From: Methanohalophilus levihalophilus
GTDB lineage: Archaea > Halobacteriota > Methanosarcinia > Methanosarcinales > Methanosarcinaceae
NCBI RefSeq assembly: GCF_017874375.1
Contig: NZ_JAGGLK010000003.1
Span: 1-64,000, forward strand
Direction of reading: 5' to 3'
Length of the DNA: 64,000 nt
Shown: positions 55,830-62,084 of the stretch, one piece after another
How the letters are laid out: each line of letters opens with the position of its first letter
Numbering within the stretch: position 1 is the first letter of the stretch
The notes under the pieces: generated by a model
Database searches by the model: none
Told to the model about the DNA's origin: nothing
The model's input: the letters and a program-made list of their open reading frames with translations, nothing else
Translations under genes and position numbers: made by a program

Positions 55830-56510
55830 ATGGCTACTGGAAAAACAGAAGAATATCTTGAAACAATTCTCAGTCTCATCAGCAAGACCAGCTCTCCTGC
55901 AAAAAACAAGGATATTGCAAATGAACTGGACATTGCACCGGCAACTGCTACTGAAATGATTCAGCGTTTGTCAGATGAAGGGTTTGTTAAGTATATTCCA
56001 TACAAAGGCGTTGAATTAACTGATGAAGGTATCAGGAAAGCCACAGAATTACAGCACAGGCACAACATTCTCCGTGATTTTCTATCCCAGGTTCTTCGCA
56101 TAGATGATGTGGCTGCTGACAGGGAAGCCTGTGTGCTTGAACATTCCGCTTCCGAACTTGTGGTTGAGAGCATGCTTTCCTATATGGAGGAAAAGGGAGT
56201 TGTTCGCAAGCATATTGCTGACATCTCGGATACCTGCCGCAGCACAGATGGGGATTACGTTCGCCTGAATGATCTCCACGAAGGTGAAATGGCAACAGTT
56301 GCACTTATCCATCTCCCCAAATCAGATCGCGACAGGCTGACTTCTCTGGGTATGGTTACAGGAGAAGACATTGAAATTAAACGAAGACAAAAACAGGGCT
56401 GTCTTTCTATTCTTACAAAGGGAACTGAAATTGCCCTTGGTAAGGACATCGCAAATAAAATCTTCGTAATGTTAAAGGGCCAGCATTATGCTGGAGGTGA
56501 AGTAGATTAA
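55830..56510 (+). CDS. DtxR-family metal-dependent repressor with FeoA/SH3 domain
   Basis: This 226-aa protein has an N-terminal winged helix (1-~65; TEEYLETILSLISK, IAPATATEMIQRLSDEGFVKY), a dimerisation and metal-binding domain (about 66-130; RHNILRDFL, DREACVLEHSASE) and a C-terminal FeoA-like SH3 domain (about 150-220). It should sense Fe(II) or Mn(II) and control the coupled feoB. Its last codons contain the GGAGGTGA Shine-Dalgarno of feoB. Confidence 0.93.
   Translation: MATGKTEEYLETILSLISKTSSPAKNKDIANELDIAPATATEMIQRLSDEGFVKYIPYKGVELTDEGIRKATELQHRHNILRDFLSQVLRIDDVAADREACVLEHSASELVVESMLSYMEEKGVVRKHIADISDTCRSTDGDYVRLNDLHEGEMATVALIHLPKSDRDRLTSLGMVTGEDIEIKRRQKQGCLSILTKGTEIALGKDIANKIFVMLKGQHYAGGEVD
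56493..56500 (+). promoter_or_regulatory. Shine-Dalgarno deciding the feoB ATT start
   Basis: GGAGGTGA is a full match to the archaeal anti-SD and lies 5 nt before ATT 56506. It is inside the dtxR coding end. No ATG, GTG or TTG in the feoB frame occurs between here and GTG 56572. Confidence 0.7.
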
Positions 56511-58476
56511 AAGCTGCTGTCCACCTTCTTCAGGTCAGCCTATAGACCTAAGTTCCAAAAATATTGCTTTTGTGGGAAATCCCAGTGTAGGAAAAAGTGC
56601 TTTTTTCTCAAGGGTCACTGGAATTGGTGTAATAGTTTCCAACTACCCCGGTACGACTGTGGAAATCACAAAAGGTACGGTACAGGTAGGCAGAAGGACT
56701 GTAAATGTCGCTGATTTGCCGGGAATTTATTCTCTGGGTGCGGCAACAGAAGACGAAAAAGTATCCAAGCGATATCTTTTGAAGGAGCATCCTGATGTAA
56801 TTGTTAATGTGGTGGATGCAACCCGGCTGGAACGCAATCTTTTCCTGACACTCCAGATTCTTGAGCTTGGAATTCCCACAGTGGTTGCGCTTAACCAGAT
56901 TGATGCTGCCCGTGAAATGGGAATTGAGGTCGATACTGAAAAGCTCTCCGAATTGCTAGGTGTTCCTGTTATACCTACTGTTGCGACTAAAGGAACCGGG
57001 CTTGATGAGGTCATGAAAAAGGCGGTAGATCCTTCTCTTTCCTTTGATGGCAGAATTCGTGTTCACTATGACAATCACATAAGAAATGCAGTTGAAGATC
57101 TCGGCGCAAAATTCCCTGATGTTGATAAAGTAACAAGACTGCGTGCCCTTGAAGCTGATGTTGAATTTACAGAACTATCATGTGGAAAAGATGTTGCAGA
57201 AGCACTCCTTAGTGAAGCTTCAACCCTTGCAAACAACATCGAGCAGGTACACAACATGCCTGTATCGGATACAATTGCAAGGGATCTTTATGGTGAAGCA
57301 GGGCAGGTTACCAGGATTGTGGTATCTCAGGGAGATGTAGAAAACAAGCTTAAGCATCGTATCGATTCAATGCTGACATCCGAATATGCCGGCATACTTG
57401 GCCTGATTGCGGCTTTACTGTTAACTTTCTTTATGGTATTCCGTGTTGGAGGATTCCTTGAAGAGGGGATTGTGTACATTTTTGAGACTTACCTGATTGA
57501 ACCTGCGCGTTTGGTGATGGCAGGATATCATCCTGTTATCAACAATGTGGTTATTTATTCGTTGCTTGGCATCGAGGCCGGCTTTGCGATTGCAGTGCCG
57601 TACATCGGAATTTTCTATATCGTCCTCTCGATTCTGGAGGACTCGGGCTATCTAACCCGTGCGGCTTACATTATGGATCGTGTAACGCATAAACTGGGAC
57701 TGCACGGGCGCTCCGTCATTCCTCTTGTACTGGGATTTGGTTGCAGTGTTCCTGCAATAATGGCTACCCGGACTCTCAATACAATGCGGGAGCGCAGGAT
57801 TGCTTCAGTACTCATCTCATTGATACCATGTTCTGCCCGAACCATCATCATTCTTGGTCTGGTGGGAACATTCGTGGGATTCTGGGCAGCAGTTTCTATC
57901 TACGTTCTTGAGCTAGTCATCATACTTTCAGTTGGCTGGCTGCTGGGGCGAGCCCTTCCCGGGGAGCGCACAGGACTTATCATGGAAATCAGCCCGTTGA
58001 GAACGCCAGATGCTGTGGCTACCCTGAAGAAAACATGGATAAGAGTTCGTGAATTCATCTATGTTGCTTTCCCCCTTCTGATTGCAGGCAGCGCCATTCT
58101 CGGGGCGCTTGAAGTTACAGGCATTCTGGATTCGTTTGATGAACTTGTGTCTCCTATCTCGGTAGGACTTCTGGGTTTGCCGGCATTTGCAGCAACTGCT
58201 CTTGTTTTCGGGATACTGCGAAAAGAAATGGCTCTTGAAATCCTTGCAGTGCTTGCGGGAACTGCAAATTTCCTGATGATACTGACGCCTCTGCAAATGT
58301 ATGTGTTTGCGGTAATAACCACTATCTATGTACCGTGTGTTGCAACCATTGCAATACTCAAACATGAGCTTGGCACAAGGGATACGATAGCATTATCCTC
58401 ATTTACGATAATCCTTGCATTCACGGTAGGTGCGATTATCAATTATGTTGGATCAAATTGGTCAGGTGTTATTTGA
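56506..58476 (+). CDS. feoB: Ferrous iron transporter FeoB, apparent ATT start
   Basis: FeoB imports Fe(II). From ATT 56506 the protein has 656 aa: Cys-Cys N-terminus (KSCCPPSSG), G1 GNPSVGKS (24-31), G2 at NYPGTTVE, G3 DLPGIYSL, G4 NQID, a helical linker, then the two Gate regions with ILEDSGYLTRAAYIMDR, GFGCSVPAIMATRT and IPCSARTIIILG. GTG 56572 would begin right at the P-loop and drop strand 1 (KNIAFV), so it is not credible. The only candidate with a ribosome site is ATT, overlapping the dtxR stop (GATTAA). AT(A/T) codons further in lack a Shine-Dalgarno. Confidence 0.9.
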   Translation: MKSCCPPSSGQPIDLSSKNIAFVGNPSVGKSAFFSRVTGIGVIVSNYPGTTVEITKGTVQVGRRTVNVADLPGIYSLGAATEDEKVSKRYLLKEHPDVIVNVVDATRLERNLFLTLQILELGIPTVVALNQIDAAREMGIEVDTEKLSELLGVPVIPTVATKGTGLDEVMKKAVDPSLSFDGRIRVHYDNHIRNAVEDLGAKFPDVDKVTRLRALEADVEFTELSCGKDVAEALLSEASTLANNIEQVHNMPVSDTIARDLYGEAGQVTRIVVSQGDVENKLKHRIDSMLTSEYAGILGLIAALLLTFFMVFRVGGFLEEGIVYIFETYLIEPARLVMAGYHPVINNVVIYSLLGIEAGFAIAVPYIGIFYIVLSILEDSGYLTRAAYIMDRVTHKLGLHGRSVIPLVLGFGCSVPAIMATRTLNTMRERRIASVLISLIPCSARTIIILGLVGTFVGFWAAVSIYVLELVIILSVGWLLGRALPGERTGLIMEISPLRTPDAVATLKKTWIRVREFIYVAFPLLIAGSAILGALEVTGILDSFDELVSPISVGLLGLPAFAATALVFGILRKEMALEILAVLAGTANFLMILTPLQMYVFAVITTIYVPCVATIAILKHELGTRDTIALSSFTIILAFTVGAIINYVGSNWSGVI

Positions 58477-59922: not shown

Positions 59923-60195
59923 ATGAAATTAAAATCGGCAGCTTTTTATTATTTAGCTTTTCATTTTATTGTAATGACCCGGATGACCAATTCACACCAA
60001 AAAAATGCAATCTCTGCTATGAAAGACATTTTTGAAATGGATAAGTCACGGGATCCTGAAGCAACTGAAGTAAACTCATTACTTGAATCCCTTGGAACTC
60101 ATGGTTCTTTGGTAGGCAAAACTGCGGTGTACAACGGATCTGAATTATCCCATGTGCATACAAAAAAGGCAGTTACTAAAGACAAACGCTTATGA
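59923..60195 (+). CDS. Possible small protein, 90 aa
   Basis: An open frame starts at ATG 59923 after AT-rich DNA, with no clear Shine-Dalgarno. It begins MKLKSAAFYYLAFHF with one hydrophobic stretch, followed by a polar segment. No family is recognised. It ends 6 nt inside the convergent nuclease gene. It may be real or spurious. The stretch 59774-59922 shows only AT-rich sequence. Confidence 0.3.
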   Translation: MKLKSAAFYYLAFHFIVMTRMTNSHQKNAISAMKDIFEMDKSRDPEATEVNSLLESLGTHGSLVGKTAVYNGSELSHVHTKKAVTKDKRL

Positions 60196-60984
60196 AATTC
60201 CCGGGACGAAGTTCAAAAGCTCAATTATTTTTCGTGAAGTTTTGCCTTCAACTTCTTCCTCAAGACCATAGTCTCTTATCACGTGATTATCCAGAGATAT
60301 GTCGTCAAGATAACCGTACCAATAAACTACAAGGCCGGTCCCATAGAGTTTCTCATACTCGATGAACTGCTTTCGAATATAATGCTCATGTTCGGAGTGG
60401 TTTCCAAAAACCGCCTTGCTTTCAATCCAGAGAACCTTTTTTCCATCAACTTCCATCGGCTCTTCAAGCAAAAAATCAGGCGTTTTAGATGAATTAGTGT
60501 CCCTTAAATCGTCTTCAGTCTAATACACAATGTCTTTTCCGTCAAGCCATTCAGCAATAATTTCCTCGCCCATCTCTCCCCTGTGGGCCTGCATGTGGTG
60601 AGCCCAGGGTGAGAAAAAGGGATCCAATTCGATTGCTTCGTAAATTTCAGATGCAAGTCTCCTGTCAGGGAGTTCATCAAGATGCTTAAGTGTGCGCTTC
60701 TTTGGGTATCCCATCTGCTGCAGGAGATTGGATGTCACAAGAGTAGGTGGGAGCTGGTAGATGTCAGAGATTTCCATTATAGTCTTGCCGTTTTTCCAGA
60801 GACGCAGGTTTCTTTCAGTATGCTTCTCCATGTTGTGAAAGTTCTTCTTCACATGATCGACTATTTTCTGATTAAGAATTGTCCCTATAACGCCTCTTGG
60901 CTGGCCAAATTTAAGTGAGAGATTTTCAATATCATCAATAGCATTAACGGACTCACTTATCTGGTCATATGTTTTTTTATCCAT
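60190..60984 (-). CDS. CDIN1/C15orf41-like TPD nuclease, read through an in-frame TAG
   Basis: If codon 155 (TAG, 60520-60522) is read, this is one 264-codon gene ending at TAA. The N-terminal half (1-~150) is helical with a winged-helix part (GKTIMEISDIYQLPPTLVTS). After the TAG comes TEDDLRDTNSSKTPDFLLEE, then the PD-(D/E)XK core: P169-D170 of the TPD motif, E188-S-K190 in LWIESKAVFG, and GTGLVVYWYGYLDD. This matches human CDIN1, whose TPDF and HWIESKASFG segments align, in one continuous frame. Without readthrough the catalytic half is lost. ATG 60984 overlaps the stop of the glycosylase gene by 8 nt. Pyrrolysine insertion is the likely decoding in this lineage; a pseudogene is the alternative. 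Confidence 0.8.
60520..60522 (-). other. In-frame amber codon (putative pyrrolysine) in the CDIN1-like gene
   Basis: TAG stands between KDIVY and TEDDL at codon 155, between the winged-helix half and the nuclease core. The frame is unchanged over the 330 nt that follow, and those residues are conserved in the family. The next in-frame stop is the normal TAA at 60190. Confidence 0.75.
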
Positions 60985-61618
60985 TGAATTCCCCGGCAAT
61001 TGGACACAAATTACATTTTTTCTTAACGCAATATTTCTTTGCGTATTCCACTATGAGTGCGTGGTATTCCATATACATATCGACATCATCAGGAAGATTG
61101 TTCTCAAACAAATCCTGTAATTGATAATAATTTCCTTCGATGCCAACGCATTTCATTATTCTTTTGGTATAAGCATCTATAACAAACTTTTGTTTTTTTG
61201 CAGCATAGAGCACAATGCTGTCTGCGGTTTCGGGACCTACTCCATCAAGTGCCAGCAAAGTACTGCGCAGATCACCAAGAGGAAGGGAGAACAGTTCTTC
61301 CATTCTGTTATCAGAAAAAAAGATGGCCAGATTTTTTAATCTTTTTGCTTTCTGCCGGTAAAAACCTGTACAATAAACCAGTTTTTCCAGCAATTCAATT
61401 TCTGATGATGCGATACTTTCAGCATCCATCAGATTTCTTTCCTTAAGATTCCTGATGGCTTCTTCTACATTTTCCCATCTGGTTTGCTGGGTAAGGAGTG
61501 CACCAACGATTATTTCAAAAGGGGTGTCAGCAGGCCACCAGTTCTGTTTTCCGAATTCATTCAGGAGCTAGTTATAGATTCCTGGAACAAGAATCTTTTC
61601 AGGTTTTTTCTCCTTCAT
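60977..61618 (-). CDS. HhH-GPD DNA glycosylase (COG2231, endonuclease III-related), read through an in-frame TAG
   Basis: If codon 17 (TAG, 61568-61570) is read, the gene runs from ATG 61618 for 213 codons. The sequence after TAG is LLNEFGKQNWWPADTPFEII, then GALLTQQT, GFYRQKAKRL, the helix-hairpin-helix LDGVGPETADSI (124-135) and the catalytic Asp D148 in FVIDAYTKR. A MagIII-like 3-methyladenine glycosylase family (COG2231) fits best. Glu stands in the HhH where Nth has its Lys. The C-terminal cysteines (CVKKKCNLC) lack the fourth Cys of a 4Fe-4S loop. No ATG, GTG or TTG lies between TAG and ATG 61429, which would delete the conserved WWP-LTQQT part. GAGGAG precedes ATG 61618, inside the upstream gene. 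Confidence 0.8.
61568..61570 (-). other. In-frame amber codon (putative pyrrolysine) in the glycosylase gene
   Basis: TAG at codon 17 sits in KILVPGIYN-TAG-LLNEFGKQNWWP. Residues on both sides belong to the first helix of the HhH-GPD domain (family pattern IYxxLLxxFGxQxWWP), so the amber replaces a normal residue inside the fold. Confidence 0.75.
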
Positions 61619-62084
61619 CAGACCAGAACTCCTCTTCATAGTCCTTTGGGAGGTTGTCCATTAGTGAATCAAGTTTTGATGGCTTCTTTTCCTCAGTAAT
61701 ATCCTGAAGCTCTTCCTCATTGTCAGGTTGGGGGCTGCTCTCAATAGTTTCTTCCACGGTTTCAGTATATACTTCCACTTGTTCCTCGGGGATTGATTCA
61801 CGGACAACTTCAACCTCTGGTGCCACTATTTTTTCCTGACGGGTAACGGGCTTTGGAGACTCTTCAACTTCCTCTTTCCTTGCGTGTGTGTGTGTCCTGC
61901 GTAACCTGACATCCCGTGCGTATGTATCCTCAACAATTTGGGAAGAACCTTTTGTTTTGTGAGTATAGCGATATCCGATGGAACAGTTTTCTTCTCCGGT
62001 TCTCCAGTCTATATGGAACAGGTGGCAATCCTTGCCTCTGCATCCATTTGAGCTGTCAAGGGGGCAATTTTGTGGAAGGGGCAT
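61599..62084 (-). CDS. Cys-cluster protein with acidic disordered tail
   Basis: In this 161-aa protein the first ~45 residues carry four cysteines (NCPLDSSNGCRGKDC ... ENCSIGY), probably a zinc or Fe-S site. The remaining ~100 residues are Glu/Pro-rich, low complexity and likely disordered. No named family. It overlaps the glycosylase start by 20 nt and so belongs to the DNA-processing operon. The start is ATG 62084, 16 nt after prs. Confidence 0.75.
   Translation of the reverse strand: MPLPQNCPLDSSNGCRGKDCHLFHIDWRTGEENCSIGYRYTHKTKGSSQIVEDTYARDVRLRRTHTHARKEEVEESPKPVTRQEKIVAPEVEVVRESIPEEQVEVYTETVEETIESSPQPDNEEELQDITEEKKPSKLDSLMDNLPKDYEEEFWSDEGEKT

Follow-up and report, generated by a model that had tools for sequence, protein, structure and literature searches.

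The window, which comprises the first 64,000 nucleotides of contig NZ_JAGGLK010000003.1 of Methanohalophilus levihalophilus, contains a gene for an HhH-GPD DNA glycosylase that is interrupted at codon 17 by an in-frame TAG. This raises the question of whether the amber codon ends translation, regulates it, or is read as an amino acid. In all likelihood it is a sense codon for pyrrolysine (Pyl), acquired by a young and probably neutral substitution in a genome in which TAG is mostly a rare sense codon. This reading is based on the TAG itself, the presence of the Pyl genes, homology that continues past the site, the purifying selection seen over the gene, other TAG-bearing genes, and a TAG in trpF that is shared with a sister species.

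The glycosylase gene and its orthologs

The glycosylase gene (MagIII/endonuclease III fold) is located on the minus strand at 60977..61618, and encodes 213 residues when the TAG is counted as one residue. The frame reads MKEKKPEKILVPGIYN-TAG-LLNEFGKQNWWPADTPFEII... (window:60977-61618:-), and the residues after the TAG are LLNEFGKQNWWPADTPF... in the same frame. Translation starts at the ATG at 61618, with AGGAG about ten bases upstream. The end of the upstream gene (61599..62084, minus strand) overlaps this start by 20 bases, through which the two genes are likely translationally coupled. The TAG (61568..61570, minus strand) is the only stop within the 213 codons; the first ATG, GTG or TTG that follows it is the ATG of codon 64 (61427..61429, minus strand). 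The preliminary description, which gave the right coordinates and named no strand, had reported one in-frame TAG at codon 17, no start codon between the TAG and codon 64, and conserved WWP and LLTQQT segments 3' of the TAG. All of these were borne out, with the TAG at 61570-61568, the next ATG at 61429, and the segments WWPA and LTQQT invariant in the 27 aligned sequences. A PYLIS-like RNA structure, which is not obligatory, was not found after the UAG (z +0.91; 172 of 200 shuffled sequences fold equally well or better).

The encoded protein matches the Pfam family PF00730 (HhH-GPD) with 62 bits, above the gathering score of 26.2. By sequence (phmmer), its best solved relative is MagIII of Helicobacter pylori (1pu6, E 3e-22). 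An AlphaFold2 model built with 27 sequences has a mean pLDDT of 91, and places residue 17 within a helix of residues 7-22, the first of the protein. Foldseek searches with this model retrieved endonuclease III (8a5f, E 1.5e-10) and MagIII (1pu7, E 2e-9). In the MagIII alignment, Glu130 lines up with the lysine of endonuclease III, and the aspartate is retained as Asp148; neither residue varies among the 27 sequences. Glutamate in place of the catalytic lysine of endonuclease III, with the aspartate kept, marks a monofunctional glycosylase. The protein is thus probably a MagIII-like monofunctional HhH-GPD enzyme; its score of 109.9 bits does not reach the cut-off of 192 for the NCBIfam MagIII equivalog NF010494. 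The H. pylori 3-methyladenine DNA glycosylase MagIII (PDB 1PU6/1PU7) is alike in fold and in the glutamate at the lysine position, and is the closest solved relative in sequence; however, the identity is about 30%, and the archaeal enzyme has three invariant cysteines in its C-terminal region. These are Cys197, Cys202 and Cys205, each invariant in the 27 sequences. The iron-sulphur motif of endonuclease III has a fourth cysteine, which is absent here.

Orthologs were surveyed in 119 genomes of the order, 116 of which gave a match. Matches above 240 bits were taken as full-length orthologs, and were found in 88 genomes including that of the window. All 87 others begin to match at query residue 14 or earlier, so the protein is conserved on both sides of the codon-17 TAG. 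None of the 87 contains an internal TAG; one contains a TGA (G047) and one a TAA (G026). Another 13 genomes matched with 138-153 bits from about residue 31 onward, among them one with a TAG inside (G050); these represent a more distant form and were left out of the ortholog counts. At codon 17, the 29 relatives compared have Thr (12), Leu (7), Lys (5), Ile (2), His (2) or Ala (1), and none has TAG. The nearest relative, a metagenome-assembled genome of Methanohalophilus sp. (G002), is 79% identical and has AAA (Lys) at this codon. Tyr15 and Leu18, which flank the TAG, are invariant in all of the 27 sequences that could be aligned from 30 loci; site 17 is therefore free to vary inside a conserved helix. 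Among the orthologs examined, no other species has the TAG at codon 17; this species is represented by one strain.

The gene has been under purifying selection. Compared with G002, dN/dS is 0.114 over 212 codons; taken separately, codons 18-63 give 0.109 and the part that begins at codon 64 gives 0.114. When the amino acid changes that followed the divergence from G002 were polarised by 25 other sequences, 26 fell on the lineage of the window, 16 on that of G002, and 3 were undecided. The excess of 26 vs 16 is not significant in a simple 1:1 comparison (chi-square about 2.4). The 26 changes are evenly spread, with 2 before the TAG, 6 in codons 18-63 (46 codons) and 18 beyond (150 codons). Only V36I departs from columns that are invariant in the 26 other aligned sequences. 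This pattern speaks against a dead glycosylase gene, in a comparison with G002 that also covers the time before the TAG arose.

Pyrrolysine decoding and TAG usage in the genome

The genome encodes a tRNA-Pyl with a CUA anticodon (found by ARAGORN), in one cluster with pylS, pylB, pylC and pylD. The products PylS (701 bits), PylB (544), PylC (470) and PylD (352) all score above the NCBIfam cut-offs, and the N-terminal domain of pylS is present in all eight genomes of the genus. The classical TAG of the methylamine methyltransferase gene mtmB occurs in two of its three copies; the third homolog (G000:C1:629393-630742, L094) lacks it, and by eye has Met at that place. In Methanohalophilus portucalensis, pyrrolysine in MttB is reported to have been found by mass spectrometry (PMC4928046). 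Decoding of amber by Pyl-tRNA is described as competing with the release factor, with no need for an RNA element (PMC9499178).

TAG usage was counted in 364 kb of the 2.12 Mb genome, that is, in 15 stretches of 20 kb and the window. Among the 329 ends of open reading frames of at least 100 amino acids were 161 TAA, 158 TGA and 10 TAG. The frame stays open for at least 40 codons past 6 of the 10 TAG, compared with 58 of the 319 TAA or TGA (Fisher p 0.005). The codon-usage score of the extensions is also higher on average after TAG, with a Mann-Whitney p of only 0.06, as downstream genes that share the frame score well too.

The gene pylB is an exception. It is located at L032:5244-6299 and ends in a TAG one base before the ATG of pylC (L032:5242). 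This arrangement is found in all eight genomes of the genus, and the extension beyond the TAG scores as non-coding. Since pylB ends in this way, UAG appears to be mostly sense yet sometimes stop in this genome. TAG also ends pylB in 25 of 30 further family genomes. Of another 20 pylB ends, 14 were resolved, with TAG in 3, and 6 had no recognised motif; in the g5 genomes pylB ends in TGA and has an altered C terminus. A review of 2010 mentions the pylB TAG in three other species, where it was taken as a stop (PMC2933860). Such a TAG could tie the translation of pylC to the level of Pyl-tRNA, which is speculation.

In the window, two further genes carry an in-frame TAG. One belongs to the TPD family (PF14811) and lies in the same operon as the glycosylase gene (60190..60999, minus strand; listed from the TTG at 60999, with an ATG at 60984). 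Its TAG (60520..60522, minus strand) is codon 160 counted from 60999, and lies inside the PF14811 match (residues 112-243). At this site 29 relatives have Tyr, Leu, Arg, Ser, Phe or Ile, and none has TAG. By coordinates, the glycosylase gene lies directly beside the TPD gene in 25 of the 41 genomes that have a TPD match, and the two form a conserved repair-like pair. The other is feoB, encoding the ferrous iron transport protein B (56488..58476, plus strand), with a TAG at codon 6 from the ATG at 56488 (56503..56505, plus strand). The usual call of this gene is truncated, because its standard open reading frame does not start before GTG 56572, a codon within the VGNPSVGKS loop (the GTPase G1 loop); the TAG precedes any usable start. 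The G002 protein aligns over residues 1-662 and has TTG at the amber site, which may itself be a start codon. A readable start was present in 10 of the 11 feoB loci compared.

From the 364 kb, 40 TAG-bearing frames were listed and 10 were scanned; many of the rest resemble antisense frames or reading ahead of a start, and were left out of the count. In 5 of the 10 scanned proteins the TAG lies inside a Pfam match, namely PAS/histidine kinase (L037:16666-18300), LeuB, Dam, TrpF and, with a weak match, a lipocalin-like protein; TPD is in addition to these. The Dam methylase frame (L041:9795-10730) has its TAG shortly before DPPY. An acetyltransferase-like TAG-interrupted frame (L041:11529-12122) and an integrase-like frame with two TAGs (L044:5440-7038) gave no Pfam match. 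Of the eight genomes of the genus, this one alone has the LeuB TAG; in the relatives the sequence reads on across the site. The trpF gene (L046:3171-3848; G000:C3:523189-523827), which is single-copy in the genome, carries a TAG that the sister species G002 has at the same codon, whereas five other aligned species have Thr. This shared codon is the strongest sign here of a long-lived sense amber. In total, eight TAG-bearing genes (one weak) in 364 kb would correspond to about 45 per genome, a figure extrapolated from the part of the 2.12 Mb that was sampled, as are all genome-wide TAG figures given here. The idea that ambers are specific to repair genes was rejected, since they also occur in functionally unrelated genes. 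In one genome (G005), the matches to TPD, trpF and feoB were each split into two adjacent pieces, a pattern suggestive of frameshifts or assembly errors there.

On these data, PylS would charge tRNA-Pyl(CUA) with pyrrolysine, and the ribosome would insert it at the glycosylase UAG, where Pyl-tRNA would compete with the release factor; an RNA element would not be required. Borrel et al. (2014) state that an in-frame amber turns into a stable mutation in a background of this kind (PMC4153887), which is in keeping with this course. The product would be a glycosylase of 213 residues whose first helix contains pyrrolysine, at a position tolerant of many residues. The codon would be recent in this species, most likely having drifted from a sense codon such as the Lys codon AAA, against a background of rare TAG stops and of occasional TAG sense codons across many unrelated genes. 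On sequence grounds, pyrrolysine is probably incorporated at codon 17; the efficiency of this step, the neutrality of the change and the activity of the enzyme are likewise inferred.

Alternative readings of the codon-17 TAG

It is quite unlikely that the codon is a fresh nonsense mutation in a gene that is dead or dying in this strain, or a sequencing error. The TAG is private to one genome, the selection measured against G002 includes time before it arose, and slightly more changes fell on its own lineage (26 vs 16). However, there is no other stop or frameshift in the 213 codons, V36I is the single departure at otherwise invariant columns, and it is TAG in particular that interrupts TPD and several other genes. 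Random errors are an unlikely source because the trpF TAG is common to G002. An internal restart at Met64 can be given almost no credence. The ATG at codon 64 does open a frame of 150 codons, which would yield a 150-residue protein; but this product would be without helices 1-3 and would also lose the WWPA and LTQQT segments, which are invariant. Moreover, codons 18-63 have evolved as slowly as the rest, and changes are not enriched there (6 in 46 vs 18 in 150 codons). A conserved restart after the TAG was not found, and Met64 is not conserved in the 27 aligned sequences. Both observations that the preliminary description had named as evidence against readthrough are thus absent: no conserved alternative start follows the TAG, and purifying selection is not lost (dN/dS about 0.11, pre-TAG period included). 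It is equally hard to credit that a tRNA other than tRNA-Pyl misreads the codon as a near-cognate; nothing specific favours this, and a dedicated CUA tRNA and its synthetase are present.

Reading of the early amber, as proposed from the sequence at the outset, is supported by the Pyl gene set, the unbroken homology across the TAG, and the ambers inside other conserved domains. The further proposal that it forms an effective on/off switch is very unlikely in the broad sense that the early TAG ties glycosylase output to pyrrolysine supply, methylamine metabolism or the status of Pyl-tRNA. Termination at this early TAG would leave only 16 residues, and the operon partner TPD also carries a TAG. 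An amber introduced in Methanosarcina acetivorans is reported to be read through at 20-30% (PMC2933860), so glycosylase output may be lowered; no sign was found that this level is regulated, as an on/off switch would demand. However, the codon is found in none of the 87 other full-length orthologs, its position is variable, the RNA downstream is unstructured (z +0.91), and ambers also occur in trpF, leuB, dam, feoB and a histidine kinase gene. The single-copy trpF would be needed at any time that tryptophan is made. The Pyl cassette of Methanosarcina is reported to be constitutively expressed (PMC4153887). Slightly less probable again is the narrower form, in which the glycosylase and TPD nuclease genes make up a pyrrolysine-gated repair operon in which the amber at codon 17 acts as a nearly all-or-none gate. 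If it were true, scarce Pyl-tRNA would lead to less glycosylase, and a base-excision step would be linked to methylamine metabolism. Several points weigh against the reading of the TAG as a pyrrolysine sense codon: pylB ends in TAG in all eight genomes of the genus, so TAG is not always sense; the count of changes leans towards a faster lineage, though not significantly; the codon-usage comparison of the extensions is only suggestive; and with a single strain, a strain-private mutation or sequencing error at this codon keeps a small probability. Because unrelated genes show the same thing, the glycosylase amber is best regarded as a new example of a known phenomenon and not as a special switch.

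Known systems and biological meaning

The phenomenon is already known, and its direct precedents are Thg1 of M. acetivorans and the citrate synthase of Methanohalophilus mahii. Thg1 (tRNA-His guanylyltransferase) is likewise a housekeeping gene in which just one species has an in-frame amber; the amber is read as pyrrolysine, is not essential for activity, and was ascribed to neutral evolution (PMC2933860). It differs in gene and genus, and pyrrolysine was physically observed in Thg1, whereas it is predicted in the glycosylase. The M. mahii gene belongs to the same genus and to central metabolism, and its early amber was suggested to encode pyrrolysine (PMC3017947). It is another gene in another species, and pyrrolysine is likewise only proposed. 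'Ca. Methanomethylophilus alvus' is reported to have many unrelated genes with in-frame TAG and a very low usage of TAG as a stop (16 proteins, 1.6%; PMC4153887). That organism belongs to a different order, and here TAG ends 10 of the 329 sampled reading frames, several of which are themselves readthrough candidates. A publication on an amber in this glycosylase was not found in a search mostly of open-access papers; the word 'glycosylase' does not occur in PMC3639795.

A wider rule has also been put forward. Kivenson et al. (Science, 2025) reportedly described an 'Archaeal Pyl code', in which all TAG codons are pyrrolysine in Pyl-encoding archaea. The present genome appears to be alike in using TAG as a sense codon genome-wide; however, the strict form of this code is not established here, because TAG seems to be the end of pylB at least. 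With a trpF amber that two species have in common and an amber that is kept at the end of pylB, the question of sense versus stop for UAG is directly testable within one genus.

With these results, the likely pyrrolysine proteins of Methanohalophilus come to include an enzyme of DNA repair, the product of its operon partner and those of several biosynthetic genes. Such TAG-bearing genes are cut short or missed by standard gene calling. Codon 17 of the glycosylase gene offers a clean test site for pyrrolysine decoding, as it concerns a single residue, at a variable position, with a sense codon in the sister species.
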